NCBI GenBank assembly: GCA_003024785.1 | Contig: PUQB01000177.1 | Coordinates: forward strand, 248,001 to 312,000 | Origin: Selaginella tamariscina | Taxonomy: Eukaryota > Streptophyta > Lycopodiopsida > Selaginellales > Selaginellaceae | Direction of reading: 5' to 3' | DNA: 64,000 nucleotides | In this document: positions 9,541 to 64,000 of the stretch, piece after piece | Layout of the letters: each line of letters starts with the position of its first letter | How positions within the stretch are numbered: the stretch's first letter is position 1 | The notes under the pieces: generated by a model | The model's database searches: none | Told to the model about the DNA's origin: nothing | The model's input: only the letters and a program-made list of their open reading frames with translations | Program-made: the position numbers and the translations under genes

Positions 9541-9559
9541 GGTGTGTTGGGTACGAAGG

Positions 9560-12830: not shown

Positions 12831-13027
12831 TTACCATGGTATATTCTAGAAGTTTCTAGAAGTTACTAGAGATATTTATGGTCTGGCTAAATCCTTGATA
12901 GGATAGTCCAAATATAGCTAGAATATACCTTTTCCTTTGTATATATAAACCTGACCTTGAATACAAAGGATATCTGAGTTTTCTGTCTTTTCGTATATTT
13001 ACTGTGTTGTGTCTCGGGGTTCTCACA
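12821..13027 (+). repeat. 3' LTR of the young Gypsy element
   Basis: It is 207 bp and indistinguishable by eye from the left LTR at 8315-8521. It is preceded by a purine-rich tract. Confidence 0.95.
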
Positions 13028-19067: not shown

Positions 19068-19505
19068 TGTCAAGCCACAATCCAAGAGCAAGGAGGCTTG
19101 ACTCAGGAGCAGGATAAGGACTAGGAACAAGACAAGAGCAGGACAGGAAGTAAGAAAAAGACGAGAACATGAAGTAAGGAGCAAGACAAAAACAAAACAA
19201 GAATGATCGTAGAATGACTGGTGTTGATAGTAATTGATTGTACAACAATTAGGTCGGAGCTTTTATGTTCACAACTCCAAGAGCTAATTTAGGCATGAGC
19301 TAGAAATATACTCCAAGAGTTAATCTAGTCATGAGCTAAAAATGGTTCCCTATCCTGTAGGTATATCATGTAGGCATATCTTGTAGATATATCTTGTAGG
19401 TATATTCTGTATCCCGTATCATGTATCCTGTATCGGGTCCTATAGGCAAATCTTGTAGGCATATTATGTATCCTATATCATGTATTCTGTATCGGGTCGT
19501 GACAA
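19068..19505 (-). repeat. Downstream LTR of the minus-strand Gypsy element
   Basis: Starts TGTCAAGCCACAATCC and ends GGGTCGTGACA, followed by the pyrimidine run ACACCTCCTCCCC, which is a polypurine tract on the minus strand. The last 150 bp contain tandem CTGTATCGGGTC/CTTGTAGGCATAT units. Confidence 0.75.
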
Positions 19506-22500: not shown

Positions 22501-22689
22501 GAGAGTCAGATACAAGAAAGGTAAAAGAGGACATAGGAGTTACTTGAAAAACAAAAAGATGAAAAGGAACAGAATTAGTGGCAAGTTCATGCATAGTAAT
22601 AGTAAGAACTCGGAGAGGAGAAGGAGGGAGCTATGAATGAAAAAGAGGAAGGATCTTGGGGGATGGAACAGAAGAAGAGTAATGAAAAG

Positions 22690-23110
22690 AGGCAGGATTG
22701 GGAAAAACCTATGCAGATATTGGCAAGTGTACAGAATTGGAAGAATCCTATACAGAAGTTGTGAATGCACAGGAGTGAGGAGAGCCTGAGAATGTGCTGA
22801 CAAACTGACAGGAGGTGGATCCTATTGAGGAGGAACCTTCGACGCTGATATAGAATTGGAAAAACCCTATTCAAGAATACGTGAACTTACAGGAGTGGAG
22901 AGAGCCTGCGGATGTGCTAATGAACTGACATGAGGTGAATCCTGTCGAAGAGGAATCTTCAACACTGATACAAGATTGGAAGAACCCTGTACAGGAATCT
23001 GTGAACTTACAAGAGTGGAAAGAGCATGTGGATGTGCTGATGAACTGACATGAGGTGAATCCCGTCGAGGAGGAATCTTCAACTCTGATACAGAACAGGC
23101 ACGGTCAATC
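22690..23110 (-). repeat. Tandem repeat of about 121 bp (about three units)
   Basis: Units beginning near 22811, 22931 and 23052 share AGGTGAATCC and GGATGTGCTGATGAACTGAC. On the minus strand they read as a repeat of about 40 residues with KIPPRRDSPHVSS and HPQALSTPVSS. It lies inside the retroelement between the gag and RT regions. Confidence 0.7.
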
Positions 23111-24664
23111 ATGTAGCTTGTACTGCCTCAACACTAAGGTCATATCCTGCACGCAAGAAGGTACAGGATTGATCCTGGCTGCCAGAGAGGAAAATGTGAG
23201 CATCCTAAACCTTCAATCGATCTGAGGATTTGCAACCACAAACTATGGCATGCCCAAAACGATGGGAGTCGTCTAAGTCTTGATCAAATTGAAGGAAATC
23301 GAACAGTTGAATGCGCCATGAGTTCAAGAGAGAGTGTGGTAGCATGGGTAACTGCGCCAGAAGCAATCAGACGACCATCTACAACCTCTATAGGAACTGC
23401 ACGCTTCAATTTCACCATTGGAATGCCATGTTAAGTTGCAAAAGTGTTATCCATGAAGCATGCATTTGCACTAGTGTTTAACAGGGCAAACTCCTTGAGC
23501 TTTCAATTATTGAGGTGAATGTGTACAGGAAACTTGAGTGATGGAATGGTATGAGCAACACCAATGGAGCCTGCACCTACGTCCAACTTCGCGACTCCTA
23601 GATGAAGTGGACATTGAAGATTTCCAACTGAACTTCAGCTTCAACTTCACGCATCTTAAACTTTCTGGCTTTAATAGAACATTCTACCACCTTGTGTCCT
23701 GCTTCACCACAATACAAGCATAAATTCTCACCGCACGATGTTGCTTCTCGGCATCTGAAAATGGGCCACACTTTTATTTTTCAACCTCCATAGGAACTAC
23801 TCCAGAAGGTGTCGTAGGAACATATGCTACAGCTACAAGATTGGCTTGCAGGAACTACTGACGGGATTTTTCCTGACGACGCTCGAACAAACGGTTATCG
23901 TAGTGAACGACCTATTGCATGATTTCCATTAAGGTTTGGGCATTCGGTAACGTAAGGAGAAGGTCCTTCACGTCATTCCTCAACCCAAAACGGGAGTGTT
24001 CGATCAATGCAGTCTTGTCCCATGGAATGTTCGTGCAAAGTTGCTGAAATTTGGATGCATAGACAGAAGTTAGTTGGAATCCTTATGTAAGCTTCCTTAA
24101 CTTCGTGTATGCGGAATGGTACTAATCGGATCTCCAAAGCAGGCTTCAAAGGCAGCCACAAATCCTTCAAAGTCATCCATCAATGGGTTGTCACGCTCCA
24201 GCAAAGGGGCAACCCAAGCCCATAGAGATTCAACTAGTAGGATGCCAAAAGGCCAACCTTTTGTGTATCAGTCGAGTAACGGCGTGGTTACATGTGGATC
24301 AAAAGCTTAATCTGATTTAGGAAACCTTGAAAATTGGCACAATTGCCACTGAACTTCTCTGGCATGCTGATCTTTGGCTCTGAAGTAGAGTTCGATGGAG
24401 AGGAAACCACAGATGCTTAAAAGAGAGCCTGCGCAGCAGCCTTGGAGGATACATCAGCAGCTGCATACGCCGCGTTGGTGGAACCTTGCAAATTGTGACC
24501 ACTTGGCCAATGTGGCCAGCTCATGAAGCAACATTTGGTGCTCACGTTGAAATTGCTCAAAATCTGCCATGATCCGTGAAAGAAAGAAGGAAAACAAGGG
24601 GGGAAAATTGAGGAAAAAAAAGGTAACTGAAAATTGGGGAGCTAAGAAAGTGGTTATTATCAAC

Positions 24665-24943
24665 TGTCAAGCCACGATTCAAGAGCAAGGAGGCTTTACT
24701 CAAGAGTAGGACAAGGACTAGGAACAAGACAAGAGTAGGACAGGAACTAGGAACAAGACGAGAACATGAAGCAAGGAGCAAGATAAGAACAAAACAAGAA
24801 TGATCGTAAATTGACTGATGTTGATAGTAACTGATTATACAACAATTAGGTTGGAGCTTTTATGTTCACAACTCCAAGAACTAATCTAGGCATGAGCTAA
24901 AATATACTCCAAAAGCTAATCTAGTCATGAGCTAAAATGGACC
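24665..24943 (-). repeat. Upstream LTR of the minus-strand Gypsy element (partial)
   Basis: About 280 bp align with 19068-19345 at roughly 90 percent by eye; the rest of the LTR is absent and different sequence starts near 24943. Confidence 0.75.
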
Positions 24944-26372: not shown

Positions 26373-28005
26373 TATGCATGTTGTAACAAAACGGGCATGA
26401 ACATGAAAATGGGATTAAATAAATTTAATTAATACTTAAGTTTTTTATTAATTAATCATTTAATTAATATGTAATTAAGCCTTAAATATTAATTAATTAA
26501 AATTAATCCTTCAATAACCTTACTTAGTAAGGAATATTCCTAAAATATCTTAGAATATTCATATTATTCTTTAAAAATAGTTTACAATAATAAAAATACT
26601 ATCAAACATAATTACAAATGAAATCATTTCTTATCAACATGTTAATTTATTTATAAATACTTTCTTCCTAACCATACAGAAATCTCCTCATTTTGTCTAA
26701 ATCATCACTCTCCGGATTAATCAAATCATTTTGGTCAATATCTTGATGTTGTTGCCACCTAACACTCTCACGAATGCAATTGGGAGTTGCCATCCTTGTT
26801 AATACATAAGATGTGATAAGACAGGTCTGCATAAAGGCTCATCTAAAAAATGACGTTCCTTAAGAATAATATTATAAAGCGCCCGGTTGCTATCCTTCAT
26901 TTTATAAAATTCAAAATCACGAGAAAGAAAAGCTTCAGGAAATGTTTGATACGGTGGATACTGCTCACAAAATTTTCGAGATTCTTCTTTCTGAGGCACG
27001 TATCCAAGTAGTTCACTAGCTCATCCAGATATCAGAATATGGATCGAAAGTGATTGGATGAATACAAGCAATGTTTTGGTTGAGCATAGCCTTCTGAGGA
27101 GAGTCGTCTACCACTAAATATGTGCGTTCTTCATTATCCTTAAGCGACTGATCTCCCCATGAGCCCAATTAATCTTTCATTCTTGAAGAAGTATGGCTTG
27201 CTTTCCTTTCTTATATTGTGAAATTCGAGAGGTTTATAACATTCGCTGGTCAAAAATCCAATCTTTACGAATCACCTCTTCTGCAACACTACAATGTTTC
27301 TTAAGCAAATTCAACAGCGGTGTTAAGTTATGAATCTGCATGCATGACCAAATCCCCACAAGCGCACCCATCTCCTTAAGCTTTTGAAAGAGACGATCCA
27401 ACCCTGGACGAAAAAAATATCATATCGAAATTTACCATGACAAGGAATGAAATCTCCTTGTTTGATTTCTTTTTTCTATCCTCGGGCCTTTGTCGATGAA
27501 GCAGAACACCATTGACATCCAACAACACAATATGGCCATGAGTAACAGGGATAGCGTTGCCTCTTGAATACTTTGCAAATCACTTGTTTGTCCCTTTCAC
27601 ATTTATCCGTTGACACTATTCGTTGCCTATCCCTTCATCATTTAATTGTACATCATCCTTACAAGATTCAGATATTGCATGCGCTGAAGAAATTGATTTC
27701 GGAACTGAAGCCAATAAAATGTGATGAAAAAACTGAAGTGGCCCCCATGGTAACGATGTTTTGAGCTGCATTATTATCCATTTCCTGCATGAACTCTGTC
27801 ATTCTGACATGTGGCACAAGAAATTTGCCAAACCCCTCTCTTACCTCATGGCAATGCTGAAAATCCATGTTCTCAACTGTTTCATTACATCTGCAAAATG
27901 ATAATTAGCTGACCTTAAATTATCAAGGTATATTATTTACCTTGTTAATGTGTGACCCATGTTTGAACTAAAAGCTTCATTAATCCTTGAGAATTTATTT
28001 TCTGT
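26373..28005 (-). repeat. Left terminal block (candidate long TIR) of copy 1
   Basis: About 1.63 kb matching 56440-58052 nearly end to end, starting from GCATGTTGTAACAAAA (copy 2: GCACGTTGTAACTAAAA) and ending at ATCCTTGAGAATTTAT. The outer 350 bp are AT-rich (TTAATTAATT runs). Beyond both ends the two copies are unrelated, so these are true boundaries. Confidence 0.75.
26799..27868 (-). pseudogene. FCP1/NIF-like HAD phosphatase gene, element copy 1
   Basis: HAD phosphatases of the FCP1/NIF family remove phosphate from proteins through a nucleophilic Asp. Minus-strand segments in order: PHVRMTEFMQEMDNN (27820-27770), HGHIVLLDVNGVLLH (about 27545-27500, where the usual DxDxT motif reads DxNGV as in plant DLNG-type members), a RPGLDRLFQKLKEMGALVGI segment (27420-27350, motif II area), LVVDDSPQKAML (motif IV area, about 27120-27085), and YLDTCLRKKE then CEQYPPYQTFPEAF near 27010-26930. 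The order and motifs match plant FCP1-like proteins such as the Arabidopsis DLNG group. The frame is interrupted several times, some of which may be introns. The gene lies wholly within the terminal block, so an intact element would carry two copies. Confidence 0.75.
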
Positions 28006-28240
28006 ACAAATATAAACGAAATATACAAAAATGCCTTATGTTACACTCATTTACAACTATTCGTCACTCTAAGAACTCATTAACAATTCTTCTTCGTTAT
28101 TACCTTCTGAGTGAGGCGAAGAAGGTCTAAGCCGCTTGTGAGATGGTTCAGATCTTCTATCTTCTATTGATGTTTCCATGGGTAATGGAGTGTGAATGTT
28201 CTGTACTCCTCGAGATAACTTCCGGTCTAATATCTGATTG
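28006..28240. other. Short spacer between the phosphatase and methyltransferase-like genes
   Basis: AT-rich, with in-frame remnants rich in Ser and Glu (SSEDESGSMSESED) on the minus strand at 28290-28220, probably the acidic tail of the upstream gene. Nothing else recognised. Confidence 0.4.
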
Positions 28241-30626
28241 AAGTTCGTCCTCAGACTCCGACATTGAACCAGATTCGTCTTCAGAGCTATCGCACTTCTG
28301 GAGGGAACTTTCTCAAATACTCCTTATGGTTTCGTTGGGGTAGTCAGTTGAGAACCTCTCTATCCACTTGTTCAGGTCCTCAACCATGGTCTTATCCTTT
28401 TCAACGGCAAACACACATGTATCCGAAGGTAACACTCCTTCAAGACGGACCCCCTAGTGCAGTAGTCAAAAACCCACGCATCACTGTGAGGACCCCTGAT
28501 CAAGTTGACGATGCTCCGTGCCGCTTGACTTGTAATGTTTGGATAACGTACATTGCCGAATACGTCACTCTCAGCTATCGGTGTATCGGATGGAGGTTCA
28601 GGGCCGTTGGAGTGCAAACAGATGCCTGGCCAGTCATTTGGAAGTTTGAAATTTGGCGCATTCCTAACAACCAAGTGAACAACCGTATCAATGCACTTGG
28701 ATCAGCATCGTTCATATAAAATCCTGTCCAACGATGTTATTCTCTTGGCAAAAGAAGGCAAAGTATCGGTGACATGAGCAAGAATCAAGAAATAAATACC
28801 TGAAAACGTAGATATCAGTCAAGAGTGCAAGCATGAATTCAATAATAAATACCTTCTTTGTACATGCTTGCACGGCTAAGTTTCTCCACCAAATCCTCTA
28901 GTGCCCTATCTGTCGAAGGATTTTTTGACACCCGCCGATCCATCACGAACAATTGAAACGGTTTCCTACAAGCAGTGATTACCCCATAAAGTCTCCGAAT
29001 CCAACAACAAACATCTGTAGGGCTTGATTCGTAGCATCCTCCTTTATAAGGTTCAACTCGGTTCTCCGCTGCTGAAGGACTGCCATAAGAGAAGGCGTCA
29101 TCGCAATGTTCTCCTTTTTGGCGTTGGCGTGCAATAGATTCTTGCCCAGATCTTCCGATTGATTCACCCATTCGACAAGCATATCATCGTTTGTCACATG
29201 CAAATATTTGCTGACCTCTTCGTATGTTGAAGCCGAGGTCCAACCCAGTTTGTGGCAGTGTATTCCCAACCACTCCTTGAAGTGCCTGACCGTCTTCAAC
29301 TCCATTGCCTTGAGATGAAAAGGAGAGGTGGGCTGCTGTTGTTAATCTGTAATTTGCCATCAATCACCAAATCAGCCAAGACTTCCATCTCCTCCATCGT
29401 TGTTCCATTTAAAGGCTTCAACCATGTGAGCTTGAAATCGTTGTCTACATCCTTTATAGATTAGACTTTTCGGCGTCTTACTGGGTTTCTTTGCAGACTT
29501 TCTGAGGGCTCCCTTCACTTGTCTGCTTCTTCTTCAGTGTTCCTTTTGCAAAGGATTCCATAATCCCCAACCATTTGGCAAAGATCCTATCCTCGGGACA
29601 AGAAATCAAACATCAAAAAGGATGTTTCCTTCCCGCCCACCTGGGCAAAATCAACTGCTACAATTTCTTCAACTCTCTAAAAAAAGACAGATTAATATAC
29701 CGGCGAGATAAATCCCGCCCAAACAATTTGCTTACCCGGTAGTCCGCAGATTGTGTATTCCCTGCGTAGCTCTTTGTGGTGCGCTGAAGAGATTCCCACA
29801 CGGCTCGCGTGTGTTTGAACTTCTCCCATATTTTGCTGTTGTAGTGGTTGGTGTCGCAGCGTCCCATTCCGCCGATAACTTATGGTACTGCTCGATTGTG
29901 AGATTCGGCTTTAAAAACGCCGATCTTTTGTCAGCTTCTCACGGGTATGCTCGGAAAGTTTTGTTGCCATCGTTCCTTTGTTGTGTTCATCGAGAAGTCG
30001 TTGGGCTGCCGTTATTGTGTGCTGGCCACTAATGATGTAGTACGATTGATTTTTATTCTCCGTCTGAATCTTCTGATTTGTTCTGGTGTTGTGATCCACA
30101 CTTTGTCACGCCTTTTTTCTTTCATAGTATGGCACAAAACAGCATTATGTGGAACGGTGTAAGAATTGTCGTCCTTCATCTTCTCCATGAGCTCAGCTAC
30201 ACGTTCCTGGTTGAGTGGCCTGTAATTGAAGTTTGGGTTGACGCTGCAATACTTAACCCTACACTCGTAAATCTTATCATCCAACATCATTTCCTTGTGG
30301 CTTATTGCAGCATGGATGCCACAGGTGCAGCTGACAAAACGACAATGATTTTCTTTGCGATCCGAATCAACATGTGTGATCCCCGACTGCAGCTGTTCTA
30401 ATGTTCTCGGCACACTCTTCCAGCTCCCGAAATTCCTAAGCAAATTGAACGTGATCTGTAAAGAACCTGAGACCAAGCCACCTCTCAATTCCCTTATGAT
30501 GTCGCTGTGTTCTTCTTCAATGTAAGAGGGACGATTGCTCCACTTGTGGATTTTCTGTATTGTGAAGCAATATCTACTGAGAATACACCTACTTCGATGA
30601 GTCTGGAAGATCTTCGAAGTAGACAT
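28241..30626 (-). pseudogene. ParB-like domain plus DNA-methyltransferase-like domain
   Basis: The N-terminal part (30626 downward) has ERVAELMEKMKDD (about 30215-30170) and, about 40 residues later, YYIISGQHTITAAQRLL (30042-29990). This is the spacing and form of a ParB/sulfiredoxin-type nucleotide-binding fold, where xVxGxHRxxAxxxL is the core motif. At the C-terminal end, DAWVFDYCTRGSVLKE (about 28490-28430) looks like methyltransferase motif I, and VFAVEKDKTMVEDL soon after (about 28405-28360) looks like motif II with its acidic residue. Motif I near the C-terminus would fit a beta-class DNA methyltransferase; a DPPY motif was not found by eye. ParB-methyltransferase pairs are known from phages and plasmids. 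The gene is interrupted several times. Both domain calls are by motif only. Confidence 0.5.
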
Positions 30627-31454
30627 CTAATTGGATCCTCCATAGATGGGCTTTGTTGAGTTGAAGAAGAACTACGTCAACATCATTAGTGAAACGTGAA
30701 CGTCATTATCCACAAGACAAAACCACCCGAGATTAATGTTCGTAACTGGCAACCTCTGGATGAGAACGTGACATTGGATGGAACAAGGCATATGTGTCGA
30801 GCATCATTTAATTGGTTCGCAGCTTACTTTCGGTGCTTGACTAGTAAATACTTTTCATTTTTTGCTTGTCCATGTGATGTGACAAGGTTAGTTTGACACA
30901 ACTATGGTTGCTCCAATGCACTTCCCATTATTTTAAAATATGGCCAAGTTGATTCCAGAATCCCCCTGCCCATCTCTTCTCCCCTCTCGTCTTCAATGTC
31001 ACCTTCAATTCCACATCTGAATAAAAATAATTAGTTCTTCAAGCACATATCCGAGTATAATAAAGATTTATTTTAATTCTTAACGACGACTCCATACTAA
31101 TGACTGAATCTCCTTGTTTGATTAAATAGTCCTTTATACAATAATACACTATGAATACAATTCATATAAAAACGCACACACACTTGTATAAACCCAATAT
31201 ACAAAATTAATACACTGATAAATTCACATACACCTTTCTTTGTCTCAGAGGGAAGTGGACAGGATTAACTGTCTAAAGCTCACCTTTGTGATAATGCAAA
31301 AAACTGATAACATTTGGTTTTAGAACCACCATAAATATGAGCTTTGGACAGTTTCACTTAGTTTACTGGCTTTTACTCAAAATATTATGATAAAATGATA
31401 GAAGTAAATAAACTGAGATAAGCAACTTATATATACTAATACACATATATATTC
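30627..31454. other. Upstream region of the ParB-like gene
   Basis: About 0.8 kb without a supported gene. It is AT-rich toward array 1 and would hold the promoter of the minus-strand gene. A plus-strand frame at 30696-30896 has no recognisable motif. Confidence 0.4.
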
Positions 31455-32340
31455 ACATGGAAGAGGTGGCGGGATTAATCTCACCACCCCTTCTATGCCT
31501 TTTGAAAGGGTGGGCGAAATTAATCTCGCCACCTCTTCTATGTCTTCTGAAAGGGTGAGCGGGATTAATCTCGCCACCCTTTTAAAAGGTATAGAAGAGG
31601 TGGCGAGATTAATCCCGCCACCCTTCTCAGCCTTAAAGAGAACTGGGCGGGATTTATTTAGCACACCCCTTCATGTGATCCAAAAGGGTGGCGGGATTAA
31701 TCTCGCCCACCATGGAAGGGATGGTGAAATTAATCTCATCACCCTTCTCAGTCCCCTGAAGGAGTGTGCGATAACCCTTCTCTGTTTCAGACAGAAGTGG
31801 TCGGGATTGATTTGGCTCACCATTCAGGAGACAAAGAAGGGTGGCATGATTAATCCTGCCACCCCTTCCATGCCTGGTGAGCGGGATTAATCCCGCCCAC
31901 GACACTCTCATATAAATAATGGCGCTTAGTGGGATTAATCCCGCCTTACACTCATTGAGATATAAGGGTGGCGAGATTAATCCCGCCACCCCTTCTATGC
32001 CCGGTGAAAGAAATTAATCTTCCCACCACTTTCACACCTCCTTAGAGGCTCAACGGGATTAATCCCGCCACCAGGTAGATGGGATTAATCCCGCCAGCTT
32101 ACACACAGGCCATGGGTGGCGCGATTAATCCTGCTACCCTATGCGCAAGCCATGGGCAGCGGGATTAATCCCGCCGCCTATGAGGTTAACCAAAGAGCCT
32201 ATGTGAAGGGCGGCAGGATTAATCCCGCCACTTATGACCTATGGGAAGGGCATGCATAAAGGGCGGCGAGATTAATCTCGCCGCTCATGACATGCGTGAA
32301 TCCGCCGCTCATGACTTACATGAATCTCGCCGCCCTTTGG
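31455..32340. repeat. Palindrome array 1 (GGCGGGATTAATCCCGCC family)
   Basis: About 18 copies of a near-perfect palindrome centred on ATTAAT, for example at about 31470, 31597, 31690, 31878, 31966, 32050, 32155 and 32262, at intervals of 30 to 60 bp. Arms vary together (GGTGGCG...CGCCACC, GCGGCGA...TCGCCGC), so palindromy is often kept while the bases change. It lies upstream of the ParB-like gene. Confidence 0.9.
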
Positions 32341-32514
32341 TTAATCCCACGCACACACAAATATATATATGCATATGTATTTACAAGAATGTGCAAGAGA
32401 TGAACAAACACATATATATGTATATGTATATACAGGAGTGTGCGTGTGTGCCAGAGATAGAAAAATCAATAAAATTATACATATACAAACACAAATATAT
32501 ATTATATGTATAGA

Positions 32515-32568
<54 letters not shown>

Positions 32569-32686
32569 ATATGTATATCTGTGTGTGCTAAATAAATTAA
32601 ATTATACAGATACACACACACACATATATATATAGGAGTGTGCGTGTGTGTGCGAGAGATACATAAATAAATAAATTTATACAGAT

Positions 32687-32773
<87 letters not shown>

Positions 32774-34717
32774 TGTGTGTGTGTGTGTAAATACAGATAA
32801 ATAAATATACACAGGAGTGTGCGTGTGAGAGAGAAAAATTTCACCTATGTGAATGTGCCTTTAAACCTTTTTGCACTGCCATGCCTTCTGATAAAGAGAT
32901 CTATTGATCTATGGCACAACCGCTCTATTCCACCACCATCGCCTCCTCCGCCTTTCTTCTTGAAACCCTAGGAATATACCTAAACCTTAAAAGGAATAAA
33001 ATATATATTAACCCTAATCAACTATTCCTTCTAAAAATATACTTAAACCTTAAAAAAAATAAAAATATATATTAACCCTAAACGAATATTTTTTCATTAT
33101 ATTATCATAATTTTAAATTTGTGTGCATGTGTGGGTGTGTGGGTGTATCACATACACCCCAAAAATATAAATCATGCAGGAGTTTAACATATGTGTGTCT
33201 ATGAGAGTGTTAAATTTTCATGTGTAGTAATACATATATACACACATATAATATTATACACATAGACATACATACATAGTACATAATATTGTCACGTCAA
33301 TACATATTATGGATCATGCATGGTGTGTATGTATGAAAGAAGAGAGAGTGTGTTAAAAAATTAATTTTATACACATTGCATATATTAGTACACATATATA
33401 CATACACACATGTATATACAGAAAACATACATACATATTACATGTGTAAATTCAATGTGTTACATACACATAGACTGAGTACATATGGATTATACATGTG
33501 TTGAACATGATGTTTTTTAATAAAGAAGCAACATATCTCTCCAGTTTGTTTAGGGTTTAAACCCAATGCAAGTATTTTATTATTAAATTTTATATGGTAC
33601 ATAATATATATATTAGTATAAAATCTTTATACTAATGTAAACTAAATGCATGCACATTTTTCTAATTATTTAATATAAATTTACTCTAAACACTAAACAT
33701 ATATAAGTCCCAGTGTGAGTAATTATAAATATTTGATTTTGGTTTTAAACTCTATATCATAAATACAAAGCTAAATGCTTTATTTATATTGTGATCCACT
33801 CATCGGCTTGTGCATGTGTGTGCATATATGTTTCTGTAAGTGCTTTTAATGCGTGTGCACGTGTATATATATATTAAGAAATTAATTGAAAATCCCATTA
33901 ATATATACAAATGTAGAATAATTACTGAAATAATTAAGAATAAATACTAATTTAATTATGATAATTAAGTTTAATATTGGAATATTCTTGGAATAATAAG
34001 AAAATAATAAAGAATATCCATTAATATAAGGAAATGTAAATTAATTACTTGAGTAATTAAGAAAATAATATTAATAAACACACTATGAATATATTTTAAA
34101 TGATACATAATAATATATCAATTTATTTATTGTATAAGTATATATATTTATAATATATACTTAATAATATATACTGGAATATTAAGAATGTAGAATAATT
34201 ACTAAAATTTCGTAATATTAAACAGCTTGAATCACTTGAATCACATTAAATACAATTATAAAACTCATATGTCAGAGTGTCAGTTATTTGTGTCAACTCA
34301 TCATAAATCTTATTTTATTTTATTTTATTTTCAAATTTTTTGAAATTCTGACATAACTATTGTCGGTCTGACAATGCATTTAATTTCCCACTCAAATTCA
34401 GATCTAGTTTTTTTTTCTGGCAAGGGTTTCTTTATTTCTGTAATTTTCACTTTTCATATCTTCTTTTTTCTTGATAGGATTAGCTCAGGAGTGACATTAA
34501 ATTGGGTGCTATTATTTATAGGAAAGCACGGTGCCTTCAATACTGTTTACAAGTAAGTATTATAAATAAATTTAGAAATACTTATAAAGATTCACTCTCT
34601 TACATTATTTCTTAAAATTAGAATTTAGGGGTTTAGGAATTCATTATAATTACATTATATTCTGTTAGGAATTTATCCCGTTTAAACATTCTTTTTACTT
34701 AATATTCTCGGTTAGAC
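32341..34717. repeat. Microsatellite and AT-rich spacer of copy 1
   Basis: Contains (TA)n at 32515-32566 and a symmetrical (AC)n-(AT)n-(GT)n tract at 32688-32787 that can fold into a long hairpin, then CA/TG-rich and AATAATTAATTA-rich sequence. From about 33100 it aligns, reversed, with 61660-64000 of copy 2. No gene supported except the exon-like block at 34470-34552. Confidence 0.75.
34470..34552 (+). other. Exon-like conserved block upstream of array 2
   Basis: A block reading WVLLFIGKHGAFNTVYK ends at a GTAAGT donor (34553-34558). The same block with GAFSAVYK and the same donor occurs reversed in copy 2 (about 61905-61821, donor 61815-61820). A T-rich tract and AG precede it in both. It could be an upstream exon of the DUF7869-like gene, which would put array 2 inside the first intron. 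The peptide faintly resembles a kinase glycine loop. Weak evidence. Confidence 0.35.
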
Positions 34718-35750
34718 GGGGCGGTGGGATTAATACGGCCATTTCTTTTTCGCCTCTTAGAAGAGGTGGCATGATTAATCCACCACCATCTCTTTGAAAT
34801 ATGGAAGCTGTGGCATGATTAATCCGGGCAATGCTTCTCCACCTCTGAAAAAGAGCAGTGGGATTAATCCCACCGATAACTCTCTAAAATGATGAAGAGT
34901 TAACAGAATTATTAGAAAGAGTTGAATCCATTTGATATGGGTGGATGTCAAGAAGTATTGATAAAGTCACGATTAACAAAACTGCAAGAGAATAGTTGAG
35001 AAGTTGAATGATTTGATTGTCAAAGGAACTCTAGTTTAGTATGTAATTGATGTCCCCGGCTTGCATAAGCAATGTCTAACTAAGTACACACCATAAGGTA
35101 AATCAAACTACCTACCACTTGGTAGTAAGGAACCTTGCTCATCCTACCAATCAGTTTAGGACGTAGAGAAGCATTCGCGGGATTAATCCTGCCACCCCCT
35201 CAAGATCTCTTTGAAAATATAGCTTTAGAGAGAGTTGTGGGCGGGCGCCACCTATTCCCTGTTGGTGAGAGTTGTGGGTGGGATTAATCGCGCCGCCTCT
35301 TCCTCATCAAAGGGAGTTGCGACGGGATTAATCCCGTCGCCTCTTCCTGGTCGGAGGAAGTCGGCGGCGGGATTAATCCTGCTACCTCTTCCTCATCAAA
35401 AGGAGTCGGCGACGAGATTAATCCTACCGCCTCTCTCCGAAGTGGAAGAGCCGACGACGAGATTAATCCCGCCAACTCTTCCTCGTCAGATGGAGTCGGT
35501 AGTGAGATTAATCTCGTCGTAACTCCCTCTGACAGAGGGAGTAGGCGGTGGGATTAATCTCGTCGGCTCTTCCTGGTCGGAAAGAGTGGCAGCGGGATTA
35601 ATCCCGCTAGCTCTTTCCCGTCGGAGGGAGTTAGTGGCGGAATTAATCCCGCCGCCTCTCTCCAATGAGGAAGAGTCGGTGGCGGGATTAATTTTGCCGA
35701 CCCTTCCTCGTCGGAGGGAGTCGTGGGCGGGATTAATCCACCCACCAGTT
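34718..35750. repeat. Palindrome array 2 (GGCGGGATTAATCCCGCC family)
   Basis: Four copies at 34730-34870, then about twelve between 35175 and 35740 with a regular spacing of about 45-48 bp. Between palindromes lie second, different dyads of the form CTCTTCCTCGTC/GGAGGGAG, so the array alternates two hairpin types. It corresponds to 60890-61660 in copy 2. Confidence 0.9.
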
Positions 35751-35919
35751 GTATTAATGAAGCATGAGATGTTATCCCTATACATAATTATGTATTATTG
35801 CACATGCATATTATTAAGCACCCTCAATTCAGAATTCTTAAAAATATTGCATAAACAAATATCATAAATAACACAATTATTTATGTTTATGACAATATGT
35901 TTAATACTAGAGACAAATT

Positions 35920-36475
35920 ATGTCTTCTTTGGAACAACGAGATAGTTGGTACTGGAATTGTGGAAGTTCAAAATGATAATGCATTATGTCACAATATTGC
36001 CCAAGATCTTGTGTGTACGTATGGGTGAACACCATTTACAAGCATGTTGAGGTTCTGGAAATGGAATTTGAAGTCAAGGCTGACACAGAATATGTAGAGT
36101 CACAAACAAATAGTAGTACGAGTTCACAAGATGATGGTTACCTGTTGTGATGGATGAGGTGATTCTCTTTATTTATGAGATCGAGGTTGGGAGAGGCATC
36201 ATCACAGCTATAAATCCAATGGAAGTAGTATTAGAATAGAAACTAGGGACCAACTTTGTGGGTGTAGTTGTGATAGAGGTTTCACCTAATGGCACATTGC
36301 ATCCTTGATTCCTCGTGAGGTGGCGAACATCTGAATTAAGACGGTGAAATGGTTTAGCATATTCTGGGTTGGATTTCAATAATAACAACTCGGAAGGACA
36401 ACCCATATTTGAAGAGGTTCCTTGCATTGGTCTTATAGTAAGAAAAGGCAATTCATGGGTTGCAGATCTTCAATC
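35920..36475 (+). pseudogene. 5' end of a DUF7869-like gene, element copy 1 (truncated)
   Basis: It aligns, reversed, with 60130-60710 of copy 2, including the leader MSSxEQRDSW and the FVGVVV...VSPNGTLHP segment, and stops abruptly at about 36475. Only the leader and the first roughly 80 codons remain; the zinc-rich and catalytic-like parts are missing. Confidence 0.7.
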
Positions 36476-54460: not shown

Positions 54461-56439
54461 TACAAACACATTTCAATTGGCTTAATGCTATGTGGATATT
54501 AAAAAGGGCATTTCAAGGATGCTTGTCTTAAAACACTATAGTTATAGAATGTATCCTCAAGGCTTCAAGGCACACTCTTTTGAAGATTAATCCATTACCC
54601 TTGATACTTGGAACTACATAGCAAGGAACCAATCGAGGAGTTTGAGAACAACATTTATTAAAAGTACTATTCATCAAAACATAGTAGGGAGCACAACAAT
54701 CCATGTCATGTCCCACAACTGTCTTGAACATCTCTTGCAAACCAACAAGACTCAATCATCGAAAGTTCAAAGCGCACATGAAGCACCACAGGATCTTTGC
54801 CAAGCTCAAGGGGCTAGGTAGGTACAAGGCCCAATTGGACAACATGTATAAGATATTGTAGATGAAGAGCTGTTGCAGTTGCAAATTCCTACAATGTTGC
54901 TAGAGAAGAAAGGAAAAAACTCCTTAAATTATTTTAGCTTACATTAATGTGATAGGTAATTATTTTTTGCAAATGAGAGTGATAACTCGAACAATGCGGC
55001 TTTAACATTTATACTGCTTTTGCCAAATGCTATAAAAGTGCAGAAAAGACAGCTTGATAACACCTTGCCCAAGTGGAATGAACTGATTAAGAAACATGTC
55101 ACTCATGCACTAGAACTCACCAAAGGTTATCTTAATCCCATCAACATGCTCATCTTATTCTTCCAGTGTCTCCGTATTCGGTTGTTGTCCACAAAAACGC
55201 TCTTTATCATGTACACTTTCAAGAGTATGAATTCGAGGCAACACAGGTGTTCAAAGCTCAAGTCAGCAACAGATTACATAAGGTACATTGCATTCTTTAT
55301 TCAATCATTTTTCTAAGGTGTTGTATTGGAACTACCATGTTATTTACCAAAGAGATCAATCATGGTGCTACTAGACTTGTTATCCTAGGATACAATAACA
55401 ACACTGACATTATTCTGAATGTCCTATACAATGGAATGTGTGTGATTGTACCTCTTGGAGTGGAGTATAAGAATTATACAGAGTGCTCACTAAAGTTGAT
55501 GCAACTACTACTAAAGTTATATGCATCACCTCATGCTATGGTTGTCAATTTACATATGGTATGGGAAAGCATGGTTACAACTTGTGTGACCAAAGGATGA
55601 CTAATATGCAATATCAAAAGGGCATATTCACTTGTTAATATCCTCAAAGTCCTAAATCAAAGACTCATCACTGGTAATTAAAACTAGTGATTTGTAAATT
55701 ATAACATTATATATGTTATAATGTCATAACATTAGTTTATGCTGAGGAAGCAAGAAGACAAGCTAAGCTTCCTAATTTACTTGGTTATAACAAACCTTAT
55801 CAGCAAAGCCCACTTGTTAATTATGAAGCTAAAGTTTTTAAGTGACTTATGAATATAAATTTTACTATATTTTAATGCCATTCTCCAAGAATCTTAAGTA
55901 TGACATTTCATTTATTTTTTAAACTACCAAGTTTTACCAATATGAAATTACAAATTTTAAAAATTTCTTCTTTCTTTTTTAGATTTATCAACTAGATTAT
56001 TTTTTAAAAAAGGTAGTTTCATGAACTCAACTTGAACTCAACCTTGTGAACACAAATTGATAATACAAAATGCGTCCAACCTCGTTCTTTAAGACATTCT
56101 TTCCCAACTTAAGAAGAGATTTCTTTAAAACATTCTTTTCAACTTAAGGAGATATTTCTTTGCATCAATGGAAGAATGTAGTTTAGTACAAGATTAATCC
56201 TATTTTGGAAAATAAGCACTGTGACTTGAGCAAATCTTGCATGTGCAAAGAAGTATTCGAAATTGCTCATCAAGAACAAAGAGGATTTTGTAGAATGAAA
56301 TGATTTTGTCAAAATTCCAACAAAAATCAAGCTAGATCACTAAGATAATAAAATAATATTTACCTTTCGAGCTATTATGGTGTTGGTGTAGTTGTGGAAT
56401 TGCAACATAAGCACTATAAAAGCACTCAAAGACAAAAAT
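54461..56439. other. AT-rich stretch, no gene supported
   Basis: Plus-strand frames near 55020-55600 give peptides such as HALELTKGYLNPINML with no family recognised. Probably decayed mobile DNA. Confidence 0.4.
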
Positions 56440-58052
56440 GCACGTTGTAACTAAAATGGGCATGATACATGAAAATGGGAATATAAAATAAATTGCTAAT
56501 TAATACTTAAGTTTTAATTATTAATTAATTATTTAATTAATATATAATTAAGCCTTAAATAATTAATTAAATTAATCCTTCAATAACCTTACTTAGTAAG
56601 GAATATTCCTAAAATATCTTAGAATATTCATATTATTCTTTGTTGTAAAAATAGTTTACAATAATTAAAAAATACTATCAAACATAATTACAAATGAAAT
56701 CATTTCCTTATCAACATGTTAATTATTTATAAATACTTTCTCCTTAACCATACAGAAATCTCCTCATTTTGTTAAATCATCACTCTCCGATTAATCGAAT
56801 CATTTTGGTCAATATCTTTATGTTGTTGCCACCACCTAACACTCTCACGAATGCAGTTAGGAGTTGCCATCCTTGTTAATACATAAGATGTAAGACATCT
56901 GCATAAAGGCTTATCTAAAAATGACGTTCCTTAAGAATAATATTGTAAAGCGCCCGGTTGCTCTCCTTCATTTTATAAAATTCAAAATCACGAGAAAGAA
57001 AAGCGTTAGGAAATGTTTGATATGGTGGATATTGCTCACAAAAGTTTTTGAGATTCTTCTTTCTGAGGCACGTATCCAAGTAGTTCACTAGCTCATCCAT
57101 GGTATTGGTATCAGAATATGGTCGAAAGTGATTGGATGGATACAAGCAATGTTTTGGTTGAGCATAGCCTTCTAGGAGAGTCGTTACCACTAAGATATGT
57201 GCGTTCTTCATTATCCTTAACTGATTGATCTCCCATGAAGCCCAATAATCTTTCATTCTTGAAGAAGTATGGCTTGCTTTCCTTTCTTATATTGTAAATT
57301 CGAGAGGTTTATAACATATTCGCTGGTCAAAAATCCAATCTTTACGAATCACCTCTTCTGCAACACTACAATGTTTCTTAAGCAAATTCAACAGTGTGTC
57401 AAGTTGTGAATCTGCATGCATGACCAAATCCCCACAAGTGCACCCATCTCCTTAAGCTTTTGAAAGAGACGGTCCAACCCGGACGAAAAATGATATCATA
57501 TCGAAATTTACCATGACAAAATGAAATCTCCTTGTTTGATTTTTTCTATCCTCGGGCCTTTGTCAAAGCAAACACCATTGACATCCAACAACACAATATG
57601 ACCATGGGTAACAAGGGGTAGCGTTGCCTCTTGAATGCTTTGCAACTCACTTGTTTGGTCCCTTTCACATTTATCTGTTGACACTATATTGTTGCCTATC
57701 CCTTTATCATTTACTTGTACATCATCCTTACAAGATTCAGATATTGTAGGCTGAAGAAAGTGATTTAGGAACTGAAGCAATAAAATGTGATGAAAAAATG
57801 AAGTGGTCCCCATGGTAAGGATGTTTTGAGCTGCATTATTATCCATTTCCTGCATGAACTCTGTCATTCTGACATGTGGCACAAGAAATTTTTGCCAAAC
57901 CCCTCTCTTACCTCATGCCAATGCTGAAAATCCATGTTCTCAATTGTTTCATTACATCTGCAAAATGATAGTTAACTAGCCTTATAATTATCAAAGTAAT
58001 TATTTACCTTGTTAATGTGTGACCCATGTTTGAACTAAAAGCTTTTTTAATC
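56440..58052 (-). repeat. Left terminal block (candidate long TIR) of copy 2
   Basis: Matches 26373-28005 of copy 1 along about 1.6 kb, with the same outer AT-rich end and the same inner limit at ATCCTTGAGAATTTAT, after which the two copies carry different genes. Confidence 0.75.
56915..57890 (-). pseudogene. FCP1/NIF-like HAD phosphatase gene, element copy 2
   Basis: Same gene as at 26799-27868. Segments: VRMTEFMQEMDNNAAQN (57880-57820), a variable linker, HGHIVLLDVNGV (about 57605-57570), and the C-terminal half in one frame from ARAILVV to YLDTCLRKK, CEQYPPYQTFPNAFLSRDF (57110-56985). This copy keeps a longer readable C-terminus than copy 1; several breaks remain upstream. Being present in both arms of the element at the same place supports the view that it is part of the element and not flanking host DNA. 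Confidence 0.75.
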
Positions 58053-58074
58053 CTTGAGAATTTATATGTGATGT

Positions 58075-60386
58075 TCATTTCAATCTCCTCTCGCCACCTT
58101 GTTTTAGGCCAAAAAGGGTGTTGCAATTCTGTACTTGTGACATAGGCCCTTCCAACTCTCGAACAACAGTCTCCCAATAGTCGACCACATGCTTATATAG
58201 TTCTGAGTAACCAGTTGCCTTATCAGAATTCTTTGGCATCGATTTTTGAACCCATGCCACATATTTTTTGATGCCATCAATAATAACCTCTTGTTCCTTG
58301 AGCTGGGCACTCAATGGAATAGGGTCTGGTTGTCCTTCTGGGAGAAGTGGCTTTCCATTCTCTCCACTTTTGAAGAGCATTAACCCCTCTTTCGGTAACC
58401 ACTCCTGCTCTGATGGCCGTAACTTGTACTGCATAATAGGTATACCATCTCGTATGGAAAAAAGAATTTAGCGGCACAAGGTGACCAACTAAAGAATCAC
58501 TCCCTCTTTTATATACTCCTTGAGAAATTTTTTGAAGTCTGGCACCTCAGTCACAAGCAAAGCACAACTTTTTTTGGAGATGCAATTTTCAAAAAGATTC
58601 ATCATATGCGGTAAGGTAAGTGCACTTGTCCTTTTTGTAGAGTTGGAGACCTTGCTGAAGAACGCATCAATATCTTCATGAGTGTGACCAACCATAAGGA
58701 AACTGAGCGTGATTGTTCAAACACACCTTTGGCAACAAGCATTGACAAGTATGCTAGAAATATAAAAGTAAGTATGAGCTTGAGAAACCCTTAAGTAAAA
58801 TGATTTACCTATTTTTGTTCTCGCCTGCACAATTATCCATCTGTAAAAGCAAATGACGAGGAAGCTTATTTGATGTTGAGGACACATGTACACTATTTGA
58901 GCTAGATCCCTCCACTGAACCTGAACTCTCAACAGGGCCATCTGTTTTTTGTGCAGGCTGCTGACAATGCCTCTCATATTCCCAAGTAGCCTCAAGTGCA
59001 GACGTGTTCATGAGAGCATTATGTAAAGGTTGAAGGTGTTGTTTCTTCACTTTGAGATCACTGATAGGACTTGTCTGTGAGTGGGCTTCAAGGTTTCTGA
59101 AACACATGGCCAATGACCCAATAGTGAAATTGGAGTCGCTAGACCAATGTGGAAGTGAAAAGTGTCCATATGACTCACAACCGTGTCCATGTGTTAGCAC
59201 ACTGTCAATGAAATCGGAAGTTTCATGACATTTCCAAGGCACTTTGGTGTTGAACGAGCTTTGGAATGCTGGTCTTTGAATGATCCATCTTGTCATGGAT
59301 CAAGCACAGGTACTCTGATGGGCGTGACACAGAAAGCATACGGTGTGCATAGTACTGAGACCGGCAAGTTTGTTGTGCAATCATGTGGGCCTCCATCTTC
59401 TTTTGAATGGCAAGTGATCTTCCACCAAGGTTTTTGCACAAGCCTCTGCAGCCTTCAATGATGTACAAGTGTCACACTTGGAAAAGCTAGAGTGTTTTGC
59501 AATCTCCACATCCTTAAAATGAGTATTCCATATGTTGTTGAAGGTACCAGTGCAGATTGCTTGAGCCCCATCAAACTGAGGCACTTGTTCACATGTTCAC
59601 ACAGCTTCAATTGAGTGTAGATTGAAGGCAAAACCTTGAGATTTTCCCTGACCCCTGCATTTGTGGTTCGGCATTTGTGAGGCATCCTGTCTGCATTTGC
59701 TTCCACAAAAGCCTTGAGTATCTCTATGGCTGCCATAATGTGAGAGCGGGTTTTGACCAAGCGAGTGTTCCCATGTACTGAGGTTCGCGCTCCATCTAGC
59801 CACTCATCCCTCCGACGGTAGAACGTGGTCTTTGGGATCCCGTATATACTGTACCAAGCTTTGAAGCAGATGGCCACCTTATTAAATACCATGGATGTAC
59901 TCTGATAACCTGTGTCCGAGGCCATTCCATCAATACACCCAGTTAGTGCAGCATATACAAACTCATGCCTTTGCTTTTGGGTGAGCGTACGAAAGACATG
60001 TCTACATTGGGTAATTTCATTCCGGTCTGCCATCTGACAACACTTCTTCTTGCAGCAGTCAATCGTGGAAATGCTCGTAACACTTTCGGAAGATGTAGGA
60101 TCCATCTTACCCTCTTGCTGAAACTTGCAGGGGAAGATCTGCAACCCATGAATCGCCTTTTTCTTACAATAGGACCAATGCAAGGAACCTCTTCAAATAT
60201 GAGTTGTTCTTCCGGGTTGTTATTATTGAAATCCAACCCAGAATATGTTGAACCATCTTGCCGTCTTAATTCAGATGTTCGCCACCTCACGAGGGATCCA
60301 GGATGCAAAGTGCCATTAGGTGAAACCTCTGTCACAACTACACCCACGAAGTCGGACCCTAGTTTCTCTTCTGACACTGCTTCCAT
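58075..60386 (-). pseudogene. DUF7869-like protein, candidate transposase
   Basis: Minus-strand segments in order: an N-terminal VSPNGTLHPGSLVRWRTSEL region (60330-60270); a Cys-rich IDCCKKKCCQ motif (about 60060) followed by a helical region with IYGIPKTTFYRRRDEW (about 59840); CDTCTSLK (about 59475); DKMDHSKTSIPK (about 59295-59260); LLLQMDNCAGENKNR (58845-58805); and VGHTHEDIDAFFSKVS (58695-58650). The last two motifs, with conserved Asp, Asn, Glu and His, are the signature I associate with DUF7869 proteins found in repeated genes of animals, oomycetes and plants; the carboxylates could form an RNase H-like site, but this is inference. GENKNR is followed by GTAAATC and a plausible TTTCTAG acceptor, so introns are likely. 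A few breaks are also present. It is the longest coding unit of the element. Confidence 0.7.
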
Positions 60387-60719
60387 TGGATTTATAGCTG
60401 TGATGATGCCTCTCCAACCTCAATCTCATGAAGAAAGAGAATCACCTCATCCATCACAGCAGGCAAGCCATCATCTGGAAAACTCGTGCTACTGTTTGTT
60501 TGTGACTCTGTATATTCTGTGTCAGCCTTGACTTCATCCAAATTCCACAATACAGGAGAACCCTCCTCAAATTCCATTCCAGAACCTCAACATGCTTGAA
60601 AATGGTGTTCACCCATACGTACACACAAGATCCTTGGGCAATATTGTGACATGATGCATTATCATTTCGAACTTCCACAGTTCCAAGTGCCAACTATCTC
60701 GTTGTTCCGAAGAAGACAT

Positions 60720-60889
60720 ACTTTATCTCCAGTATTATACATATTGTCCTGCACATAAATAATTGTGTTATTTATGATATTGTTTATGCGATATTTTTAA
60801 GAAATCATAACTGCGGTTGCTTAATAATATGCATGTGCAATAATACATAATTATGTATAAGATAATATCTTCATGCTTTATTAATACAA
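60720..60889 (-). promoter_or_regulatory. Leader of the DUF7869-like gene next to the array
   Basis: TGTGCAG just before GACAATATG (acceptor AG at 60749-60750) could accept a splice from the donor at 61820-61815, giving a 1,072-nt intron that contains the palindrome array. In copy 1 the matching site reads TTTATGACAATATG and lacks the AG. Confidence 0.35.
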
Positions 60890-61660
60890 CTGATGGGCGG
60901 GATTAATCCCGCCCACGACTCCATCCGACGAGGAATGATGGCGATTAATCCCGCCGCGACTCTACCCCTTCAGAGTGAGTCGCGGGATTAATCCCGCCGT
61001 TGACTCTACCCCATGGAGAGATTAATCCCGCCGCCGATTCCCTCCCATGAGAAGAATCGCGGGATTAATCTCGCCGCCGTACTTCCCATCGGAGAGAGCG
61101 GCGGGATTAATCCCGCCGGCTCCCTCCGACGAGGAAGTACCGGCGGGATTAATCCGCCGCCGGATCTTCCTCGTCTGAGAGTCGGCGGGATTAATCGCTG
61201 CAAATCCCTCCGACAAGGAAGAAGGGGCGGGATTAATCCCGCCCACAACACTGACGACGGAGAATAGGCGGCGGGATTAATGCCCACAACTTGACGAGGG
61301 AATAAGCAGCGGGATTAATCCGCCCATAACTCTCTCCGAAACTATGATTTCAAAGAGATTCGGATGAATCCTGCCCACAAATATTTAAAACAGGGAAGTG
61401 GTGGCGAATTAATCCCGCCACCCCTTCTCTTCCTAAAATGTTGGCGAGATTAATCCCGACAACTCTTTCTAATAAATTCAAGTAAATCTTTATCAGTTGA
61501 GAGAGTTATCGGATTAATCCGCCGCTCTTTTTAAGAGGCGGAGAAGCATTGCCGAGACTAATTCTGCCATAACTATAAAGAGATGGTGGCGGGATTAATC
61601 CCGCCACCTCTTCAAAGAGGCGAAAAAAAATGGCCGGATTAATCTCGCCGCCCCGGCTAA
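60890..61660. repeat. Palindrome array of copy 2 (GGCGGGATTAATCCCGCC family)
   Basis: About 18 copies between 60895 and 61650, spaced about 40-45 bp in the first half. Perfect or near-perfect examples at about 60897, 61100, 61226 and 61588. Spacers again contain CTCCGACGAGGAAG-type sequences. Reverse-complement counterpart of array 2 in copy 1. Confidence 0.9.
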
Positions 61661-62990
61661 CCGAGAATATTAAGTTAAAAGTATATTTAAACGGGATAAA
61701 TCCCTAACAGAATATATTGTAATCCTAATGCATTCCTAAATCCCTAAATTCTAAAATTTAAAAGAGAATGTAAGAGAGTGAATCTTTATAAATATATCTA
61801 AATTTGTTTATAATACTTACTTGTAAACAGCACTGAAGGCGCCGTGCTTTCCTATAAACAATAGCGCACCCAATTTAATGTCGCTCCTGAGCTGATCACT
61901 AAGAAGAAAAAAGAAAATCTGAAGAGTGAAAAATAAAGAAATGAAGAAACCCTTGCCGGAGAAAGAACCAGATCTGAATTTGAGTGGAAATTAAATGCAT
62001 TTTCAAATTTACATATCAGACTGACAATACTTATGTCAGAAATTCGAAATTTTTGAAATAACAGAAAAGAAAATTTAAGATGAGTTGAAACAAATAACCG
62101 ACAGTCTGACATATATACTCTCAATTCCAATGAGTGTTTTAAAATTGCATTTAATGTCATTCAAGTGCTTCAAGCTGTTTAATATTACGAAATTTTTGTA
62201 ATTATTCTACATTCTTAATATTCAAGTATATATTATTAAGTTTATATTATATATATATATACACTAATACAATAAATAAATTGATATTATTATGTATCAT
62301 TTAAAATATATTCATAGTCTGTTTATTATTATTATTTTCTTAATTACTCGAGTAATTAATTTACATTTCCTACTATTAATGGGATATTCTTTATTATTTT
62401 CTTAATATTCAAAGAATATTCCAATATTAAACCTGATTATCATAATTAAATTAGTCTTATTCTTAATTATCTCAGTAATTATTTTACATTTGTATATATT
62501 AATGGGATTTTCTCAATTAATTTGTTATTATTTCAAGAATATTCCTATGTTAAACCTTATTATCAATATTAAATTAATATATATTATTAAAACTATATAA
62601 CTATTATTAGATAAAATGATGTATTATTATGTATAATTTAAAATATGTTCATAGTGTGTATATAATATCATTTTCTTAATTACTTGAGTAATTAATCTTC
62701 TTTATATTAATGCAATATTCTTTATTATTTTCTTATTATTCCAAGAATATTTCAATATTAAACATGATTATCATAATTAATTTAGTTAATTATTTCAGTA
62801 CTTGATTACATTTGATATATTAATGGGATTTTCTCAATTAATTTCTTATTTTTTCAAGAATATTCTAATGTTAAACCTTATTATCATATTAAATTAATAT
62901 ATATTATTAAAACTATATATGGCTATATATTAGATAAAATCATATATTATTATGTATAATTTAAAATATGTTCATAGTGTGTATATTAAT
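61661..62990. repeat. AT-rich spacer of copy 2 with repeated TTTCTTAATTACTCGAGTAATTAA blocks
   Basis: A unit of roughly 290-300 bp (TATGTATAATTTAAAATATG, TTCATAGT, TAATTACTTGAGTAATTA, AATGGGATTTTCTCAATTAA) is repeated about three times (near 62290, 62630 and 62950). It corresponds, reversed, to 33840-34200 of copy 1, which has fewer units. No gene. Confidence 0.65.
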
Positions 62991-63324
62991 ATTATTTTCT
63001 TAATTATTTGATGTTTGTTTTGCACATATATATAAACACATCATAAATTTATATATACACGTGCACACGCATTAGAAGCACTTACAGAGACACATATGCA
63101 CACACATGCACATTGCCCTAAACCAAACTTGAGAAATTATATGTTGCTTCTTTATTGAAAAACATCATGTTCAACGCATGTATGATTTATATGTACTCAG
63201 TCTGTGTGTATGTAACACATTGAATTTACACATGTAATATATATGTATGTCTGTGTGTATACACGTGTGTATGTATATATGTGTACTAATATATGCAATG
63301 TGTACGATTTTCATTTGTTAACAC

Positions 63325-63810
63325 TCTATCTCTTCTCTCATACATACACAGTGTCACCATGCATAATCCCTTCTCTCATACATACACACCATGCATGATC
63401 ATGATCCATAATATGTAGCATGTCTCTTCTCTCATACATACACACCATGCATGATCCATAATATGTACTGATGTTACAATATTATGTAATATGTATAATG
63501 TATATCTGTGTATAACACTCACTCTTCTCATACATAAACACCATGCATGATCCATCCTAACCCTAAACCCTAAACCCTAAACCCTATGTAACACATTGAA
63601 TTTACACATGTAATATGTATGTATGTCTGTGTGTATACACGTGTTATGTATATGTGTGTACTAATATATGCAATGTGTATGAATTTAATTTGTTAACACT
63701 CTTTCTCTTCTCTCATACATACACACCATGCATGATCCATATTAATATGTATTGTCTCTCTTCTCTCAAACATACACACCATGCATGATCCATAATATGT
63801 ATTGTCACTC
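63325..63810. repeat. Minisatellite TCTCTCATACATACACACCA/CCATGCATGATCC
   Basis: About six imperfect copies of a 45-50 bp unit containing CATACATACACACCATGCAT and GATCCATAATATGTA, interrupted by a duplicated 130-bp CA-rich block (63210-63290 and 63590-63670). Copy 1 has only about one unit (near 33300). Confidence 0.75.
63555..63586. repeat. Short interstitial telomere-type repeat
   Basis: About four units of CCCTAAA in a row (TTTAGGG on the other strand), inside the minisatellite region. Confidence 0.8.
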
Positions 63811-64000
63811 TCTCTCTCAGATCCTATACTCTGTCTCTCTAATATTAATATGTACTAATATGTATGTATGTCTATGTGTATAATACTATGTGTGTATATA
63901 TGTATCGCTACACGTGAAACTTTAACACTCTCATGGACACATACATGTTAAACCCTGCATGATTTTTATTCTTGGGGTGTATGTGATACACCCACGCACA

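Follow-up and report, generated by a model that had tools for sequence, protein, structure and literature searches.

We analysed 64,000 nucleotides of Selaginella tamariscina DNA (hereafter the window; C479:248001-312000, in a 300.7-Mb genome of 1,391 contigs) and conclude that the stretch 26374..36471 is very probably a truncated copy (A) of a ~15-kb class II (cut-and-paste) transposon family with high copy number, in which a DUF7869 protein would act as transposase and arrays of palindromes would serve control of the element, with a second copy (B) nested in a third (C) at the window's right edge. The order within the family is left end, outward-facing left arm, palindrome array 1, a microsatellite and AT-rich middle, palindrome array 2, outward-facing DUF7869 gene and right end. 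The initial annotation had matched 26373..36475 with 56440-64000 and read both as one coherent large DNA element; in a self-comparison of the sequence, 26374-36471 indeed shared blocks with 56438-64000, piecewise and in both orientations, so that its coordinates held to within a few bases. For comparison, the contig was fetched past the right edge of the window and two fuller copies were added, D (C697) and E (C738), which measure 12,413 and 14,668 bases from end to end.

Ends, target duplications and the two arms

The ends of the element are 27-bp inverted repeats that begin with ATGCA. The left end common to D and E reads ATGCACGTTGTAACTAAAGTGGGCATG, and the right end of E, reverse-complemented, reads ATGCAAGTTGTAACTAAAATGGGCATG, from which D differs at 2 bases. 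A combined 27-bp end pattern, with up to 2 mismatches allowed, matched the genome at 1,995 places in forward and at 1,906 in reverse orientation (3,901 together), and the reversed pattern used as a control had 0 in either direction. Were each end to stand for a full copy, the family would account for as much as ~9.5% of the 300.7-Mb genome (3,901/2 x 14.7 kb), which is an upper estimate and not a measurement. Seventeen facing end pairs were chosen by eye from 100 listed places and, as first paired, 14 of them spanned 13.9-15.0 kb, the others 10.2 (C42), 11.9 and 18.1 kb; D and E brought the set to 19 pairs.

A target duplication of exactly 4 bp was found in 10/19 end pairs versus 0/342 cross-pairs. 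Re-pairing C42 with the next outward end gave a span of 14.2 kb and an AAGG/AAGG duplication, bringing the count to 11/19. Shifting the comparison by one base either way abolished the 4-bp matches, and a shift of +2 left one among the 19 pairs. Other lengths matched in one pair at most without a shift: 3 bp matched in 1/19 pairs, and 5, 6, 7 and 8 bp in 0/19 each. When lengths of 4-12 bp were allowed shifts of up to 3 in the 17 pairs, the longest match was 7 bp, three of its bases coming from the end itself, and 6-bp matches in two pairs (53/54 and 63/64) likewise took in end bases. The duplicated words (TAGA, CTAT, ATAA, TGGT, ATTG, CGTT, ATGT, AAGA, TATC, ATCT and AAGG) have no fixed sequence. 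At L051 (G000:C80:563690-564010), a full copy with an ATAA duplication of its own is immediately preceded by a solo left-end piece of ~250 bp.

The right arm holds the DUF7869 gene. In E, a 462-codon open frame is followed by a 392-codon open stretch, and a putative 54-base GT-AG intron would join the two; the DUF7869 match (1e-26) lies in the second open stretch. The DUF7869-like protein that had been noticed in the window is borne out in copy B, whose gene (58489..60192, minus strand) comprises open reading frames (ORFs) at 59455-60192, 58805-59299 and 58489-58716, with DUF7869 matches of 9.3e-20 and 1e-10. Copy A keeps only the start of the gene (35860..36471, plus strand; start position approximate), where it is cut off. 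A genome search with the 462-codon first exon of E gave 6,646 first-look candidates, of which 92 were scored. These copies would seem to reflect a recent burst, because all 92 were 97-100% identical, many had equal scores and the long exon was without internal stop in 84/92, with open frames of up to 671 residues. The family, with its many near-identical copies, has thus probably been active recently.

In the protein database, there were 172 DUF7869 relatives at E <= 0.001 (120 listed); among these 120, the ones that bear names are from liverworts, echinoderms (sea urchins), bivalves and Chromera. These belong to the same domain family as the right-arm protein of the element, although their listed names do not say transposase. 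D169, D172, D327, E366, D367 and D369 (numbering of P0001), all acidic, were invariant or nearly so in an alignment of 46 relatives. They fall into three clusters, around HDKMD, QMDN and GHTHEDID, which form a candidate DDD/E site of the kind expected of a DDD/E transposase. The DUF7869 protein is probably the transposase, which would cut at the 27-bp ends and would move the element by cut-and-paste through an RNase H-type site. Prokaryote contigs yielded 3 relatives from 42 pattern stretches, all on contigs of less than 6.5 kb in metagenome-assembled genomes, and these are possibly contamination.

Both arms are seen directly in D and E. Besides, we paired 150 scored matches (of 5,629 candidates) to a left-arm piece that carries a ParB-resembling box (the ParB piece, see below) with the 92 scored DUF7869 matches, requiring a distance of at most 30 kb on one contig. 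At least 10 such pairs were found. In at least six of them (C113, C603, C630, C830, C938 and C1145) the arms faced outward as expected, their starts being separated by 7.7-9.1 kb; a pair on C496 has the same order at 18.0 kb, and three others (C472, C570 and C571) have another order at 12.6-18.6 kb. On C1-C113, a left-type end lay 3.7 kb from the ParB piece in 8/9 matches (seven from the end listing, one in L079), and the ninth, at C1:2378997, had no left-type end that near among the matches listed. Both arms thus belong to the same copies. Two outcomes that would have spoken against a single element, namely that the arms never occur together or that the terminal block is a separate small transposon, were looked for; the first was not found, and the second does not apply to the copies examined.

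Relation to Sola and other superfamilies

Candidate superfamilies with other duplication lengths were tried and rejected. EnSpm/CACTA elements have 3-bp duplications and CACTA termini; here, the ends begin with ATGCA and 3-bp matches were confined to a single pair. Polinton/Maverick elements have 6-bp duplications and a protein-primed DNA polymerase, and no pair matched at 6 bp without a shift. The MuDR/MULE group, with duplications of 7-12 bp (PMC10741241), was set aside on the absence of unshifted matches at 7 and 8 bp, the one shifted 7-bp match including end bases.

Most probably, the element is a cut-and-paste transposon of the Sola type or of a sister group. According to the descriptions available to us, Sola elements have a DDD transposase, a 4-bp duplication, variable ends and sometimes more than 15 kb, and are present in a moss (PMC10741241), namely Physcomitrella in the case of Sola1 (PMC10741241, PMC9033089); their features are tabulated in PMC9033089 (Table 1). 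The 4-bp duplications, terminal inverted repeats, size and candidate acidic triad of our element agree with these (PMC10741241, PMC9033089). The initial annotation had recognised no named superfamily in this set of parts, a verdict that has become doubtful since duplication length, size and acidic triad fit Sola. We nevertheless call the element Sola-like rather than filing it as Sola, as the two were compared by described features and not by transposase sequence. What is new relative to the Sola descriptions is the accessory arm together with the paired palindrome arrays: in those portions of the two sources that deal with Sola, a phosphatase-like arm and two palindrome arrays go unmentioned (PMC10741241, PMC9033089). 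An accessory protein on a Sola element, along with short terminal inverted repeats and 4-bp duplications, is also described for Sola2-Fanzor of dictyostelids, yet there the accessory gene is Fanzor1 rather than a phosphatase-like or ParB-like gene, and the duplications are AT-rich (PMC3627910, as far as its description extends).

Alternatively, the family could represent a superfamily distinct from Sola that has only the length of the duplication in common with it. Our literature searches found no paper mentioning DUF7869 and hence no printed link between this domain and Sola, nor any paper describing this ~15-kb element. Against such a separation, Sola as described (DDD transposase, 4-bp duplication, lengths that sometimes pass 15 kb, variable ends and presence in a moss; PMC10741241, in the part that treats Sola) agrees with our element and its candidate acidic triad, and we regard a distinct superfamily as a real possibility, albeit the less probable one.

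Palindrome arrays and the left arm

The two palindrome arrays that the initial annotation had placed between the arms are both present in A, and one array lies in the window part of B. Array 1 of A (31455..32290) sits upstream of the left-arm gene and contains 14 GATTAATC-centred sites; array 2 (35231..35747) sits upstream of the transposase gene and contains 9, with 7/8 gaps of 44-46 bp; array 2 of B occupies 60895..61320. Together, these three arrays take in 34/45 GATTAATC sites of the window, as against 0.09 expected for the same stretches combined under a first-order Markov model. Across 142 units from copies A-E, the consensus is the 18-bp palindrome GGCGGG-ATTAAT-CCCGCC, mostly repeated at 44-45 bp. 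In these units, the six arm bases on each side of the core carry 0.86-1.48 bits each, the next three bases outside the palindrome 0.31-0.46 bits and those ten or more positions from the core edge no more than 0.37 bits. Genome-wide, GGNGGGATTAATCCCNCC occurs 29,081 times and its reversed control 0 times. One hundred listed sites, all on C1, formed 13 clusters by eye, of which five consisted of a pair of arrays separated by 3-4 kb. At least 6/13 adjoin one of the listed transposon ends or left blocks, and the rest have none listed within a few kb.

Binding by a dimer would be the simplest explanation of the palindromes, because they are kept while the spacers drift. Selectively neutral tandem repeats could instead be invoked, given that tandem arrays turn over by slippage and that array length differs between the copies; yet the palindrome arms are conserved next to spacers near zero bits when units from two arrays and five copies are pooled, and we consider neutrality unlikely. 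Under the dimer explanation, the palindromes upstream of both genes may be binding sites for a dimeric protein encoded by the element, probably by its left arm, although this part is less certain than the role of the DUF7869 protein. The binder might then control or de-silence the element in the manner of the VANC proteins, which read motif arrays on VANDAL elements and lift silencing (PMC5735166, in the part consulted). VANDAL arrays resemble those found here in being dense arrays of a short motif, non-coding and also located upstream of a gene, and there an element-encoded protein does bind (PMC5735166). They differ in their motif, YAGTATTAY, of 9 bases and in one orientation, as opposed to an 18-bp palindrome (PMC5735166), and in that VANDAL elements are of the MuDR type, as stated in the relevant portion of PMC12730594.

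Several points weigh against the overall interpretation of a DUF7869 transposon controlled through its palindromes. Even after the correction of C42, 8/19 facing end pairs are without a target duplication, and that re-pairing was done after the first result had been seen, the first pairing having used the inner end with a negative outcome. No solved structure matches the DUF7869 profile by sequence, and the RNase H fold is a presumed one. As the core ATTAAT served to find the units, its conservation is circular and only the flanking bases count. Finally, the 18-bp palindromes have no known binding protein. With regard to the end pairs, those without duplication are likely explained by recombination between nearly identical copies, by further mispairing or by joins made in the assembly.

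The left arm carries a phosphatase-like gene, as had been proposed for the terminal block. In A it is in pieces (26799..27904, minus strand; ORFs 26799-27020 and 27668-27904); of two fragments tried, one gave a NIF match at E 0.048 and the other nothing. In fuller copies the match to NIF/HAD (PF03031) is clear, with 39.6 bits in L079 and 38.2 bits in L080 (E 5.6e-10, the stretch equivalent to that in A, and 1.4e-9), above the cut-off of 21.8. The NIF match of L079 falls in a 280-codon frame, which this copy has besides a 477-codon frame and additional open stretches. The catalytic motif of NIF/HAD phosphatases is D-x-D. The phosphatase of the left arm may be changed or inactive, because D-V-N takes the place of D-x-D in 30/30 left-block loci (L005-L034). 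Beyond the left end of the transposon in L079 (7222-7854), a 211-aa frame looks like a Harbinger-type transposase by eye and had no Pfam match up to E 5.

Methyltransferase-like and ParB-like domains had been proposed for one arm. This can be upheld at the motif level only: of two further left-arm exons of A, both on the minus strand, the one at 28372..28701 contains a string resembling methyltransferase motif I (FDYCTRGS), and the one at 30012..30626 runs, in more open copies, into a ParB-resembling GxH box (IISGQHTITAAQRL). Searches of the left arm with ParB_N and against Pfam, NCBIfam, PHROGs and PDB sequences returned nothing significant for either domain. ParB_N (PF02195) had 0 genome matches at E 10 and was negative for the left-arm pieces too, while 11/14 control genomes gave matches; for the N6_N4 methyltransferase family (PF01555), those L079 exons that were tried gave no match at E 5 or below. 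Among 7,477 protein-database candidates for the left arm none reached E <= 0.001, a search in which length limits may hide longer relatives.

A different repeat (L081, G000:C565:328001-335000) carries half of an N6_N4 methyltransferase as a significant match (PF01555, 4.2e-8), which includes a WDIGSGTGS motif; a ParB-like GNHRLQA box lies upstream. It contains the one PF01555 genome match that was examined out of 150 scored; these were drawn from 739 candidates, and nearly all of them cover profile positions 163-220. In profile comparisons with L081, the motif-I region of our left arm did not match, and the ParB region matched through a weak box only (hhalign E 0.036, 1.4% probability).

A more far-reaching role for the left arm would be an addressing system akin to ParB/parS, in which a ParB-like and methyltransferase-like protein would load on tens of palindromes, arranged per copy in two arrays upstream of both genes, and spread along or modify the DNA, and so mark the copies, keep them expressed against host silencing or pair them. 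We judge this improbable. If true, the ~29,000 sites would also amount to a landscape of binding sites across the genome, all for a single protein encoded by the element.

The large size and the motifs resembling ParB and methyltransferase, which have a phage-like flavour, might also bring to mind endogenous giant-virus or Polinton-like DNA. None of 32 pattern stretches on viral contigs was confirmed as a DUF7869 relative, and the duplications are of 4 bp and not 6 bp; the ORFs of the element were scanned in part, with no search aimed at capsid or polymerase genes. We hold a viral origin to be very improbable.

Nested copies and other features of the window

The alignment of copy A with E starts at the left end (E 83) and stops inside the transposase gene, at E 11733; A is therefore a truncated copy (26374..36471, plus strand), its left end kept and its right end gone. 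Its left terminal inverted repeat (26374..26399, plus strand) is decayed (ATGCATGTTGTAACAAAACGGGCATG as compared with ATGCACGTTGTAACTAAAGTGGGCATG). Between the two arrays lies a microsatellite and AT-rich middle (32424..34924). Towards its break, A 35205-36471 aligns with E 10435-11733, where the first ORF of the DUF7869 gene of E starts at ~11100.

Copy C is one plus-strand element. Its left end and left block occupy 56438..58065, with a left terminal inverted repeat at 56438..56464, and it resumes at 69501, beyond the window, to end at 80976; the segments 56438-58065 and 69545-80977 both match E. C is without ~1.7 kb of the transposase gene. Copy B (58068-69500) is a second element, inserted in C in reverse. 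Its window part is 58068..64000 on the minus strand, with its left end at 69500 beyond the window and its right end lost at 58068. The outer flanks of C both read AAAA, which has the length expected of a duplication but is low in complexity. A mid-element stretch of E, ~1.8 kb long (E 7230-9010, L037) and missing from D at the equivalent place, recurs in the right arm of C (77867-79599 in the coordinates of the extended window) and is perhaps another inserted repeat.

The initial annotation had described long inverted terminal blocks, and at this locus 56432-58065 and 69506-67874 are indeed inverted copies of 1.63 kb with 90% identity. These blocks are an effect of the nesting of B in C, because C matches E on both sides of B and AAAA flanks C. 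A transposon with kilobase-long inverted terminal repeats is refuted for this locus, as D and E have no such blocks and one copy nested in another produces them; the real ends are the 27-bp repeats.

Apart from this family, the window contains two identical 208-bp direct repeats (8314-8521 and 12820-13027), 4.5 kb apart and flanking ORFs of 306, 634 and 529 aa, so that 8314-13027 looks like a young long terminal repeat (LTR) retrotransposon. A second LTR element is perhaps present at 19066-24902, where 240-bp direct repeats with 91% identity stand 5.6 kb apart. An (AACCCTA)4 run is also present.

Taken together, the hitherto uncharacterised DUF7869 gains a concrete candidate role, that of a transposase whose substrates would be the 27-bp ends defined here and whose insertions would duplicate 4 bp. 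An 18-bp palindrome occurs ~29,000 times in one genome and, where examined, is part of this transposon family. Its arrays could, besides VANDAL/VANC, be a candidate for element-encoded, sequence-specific control through motif arrays.

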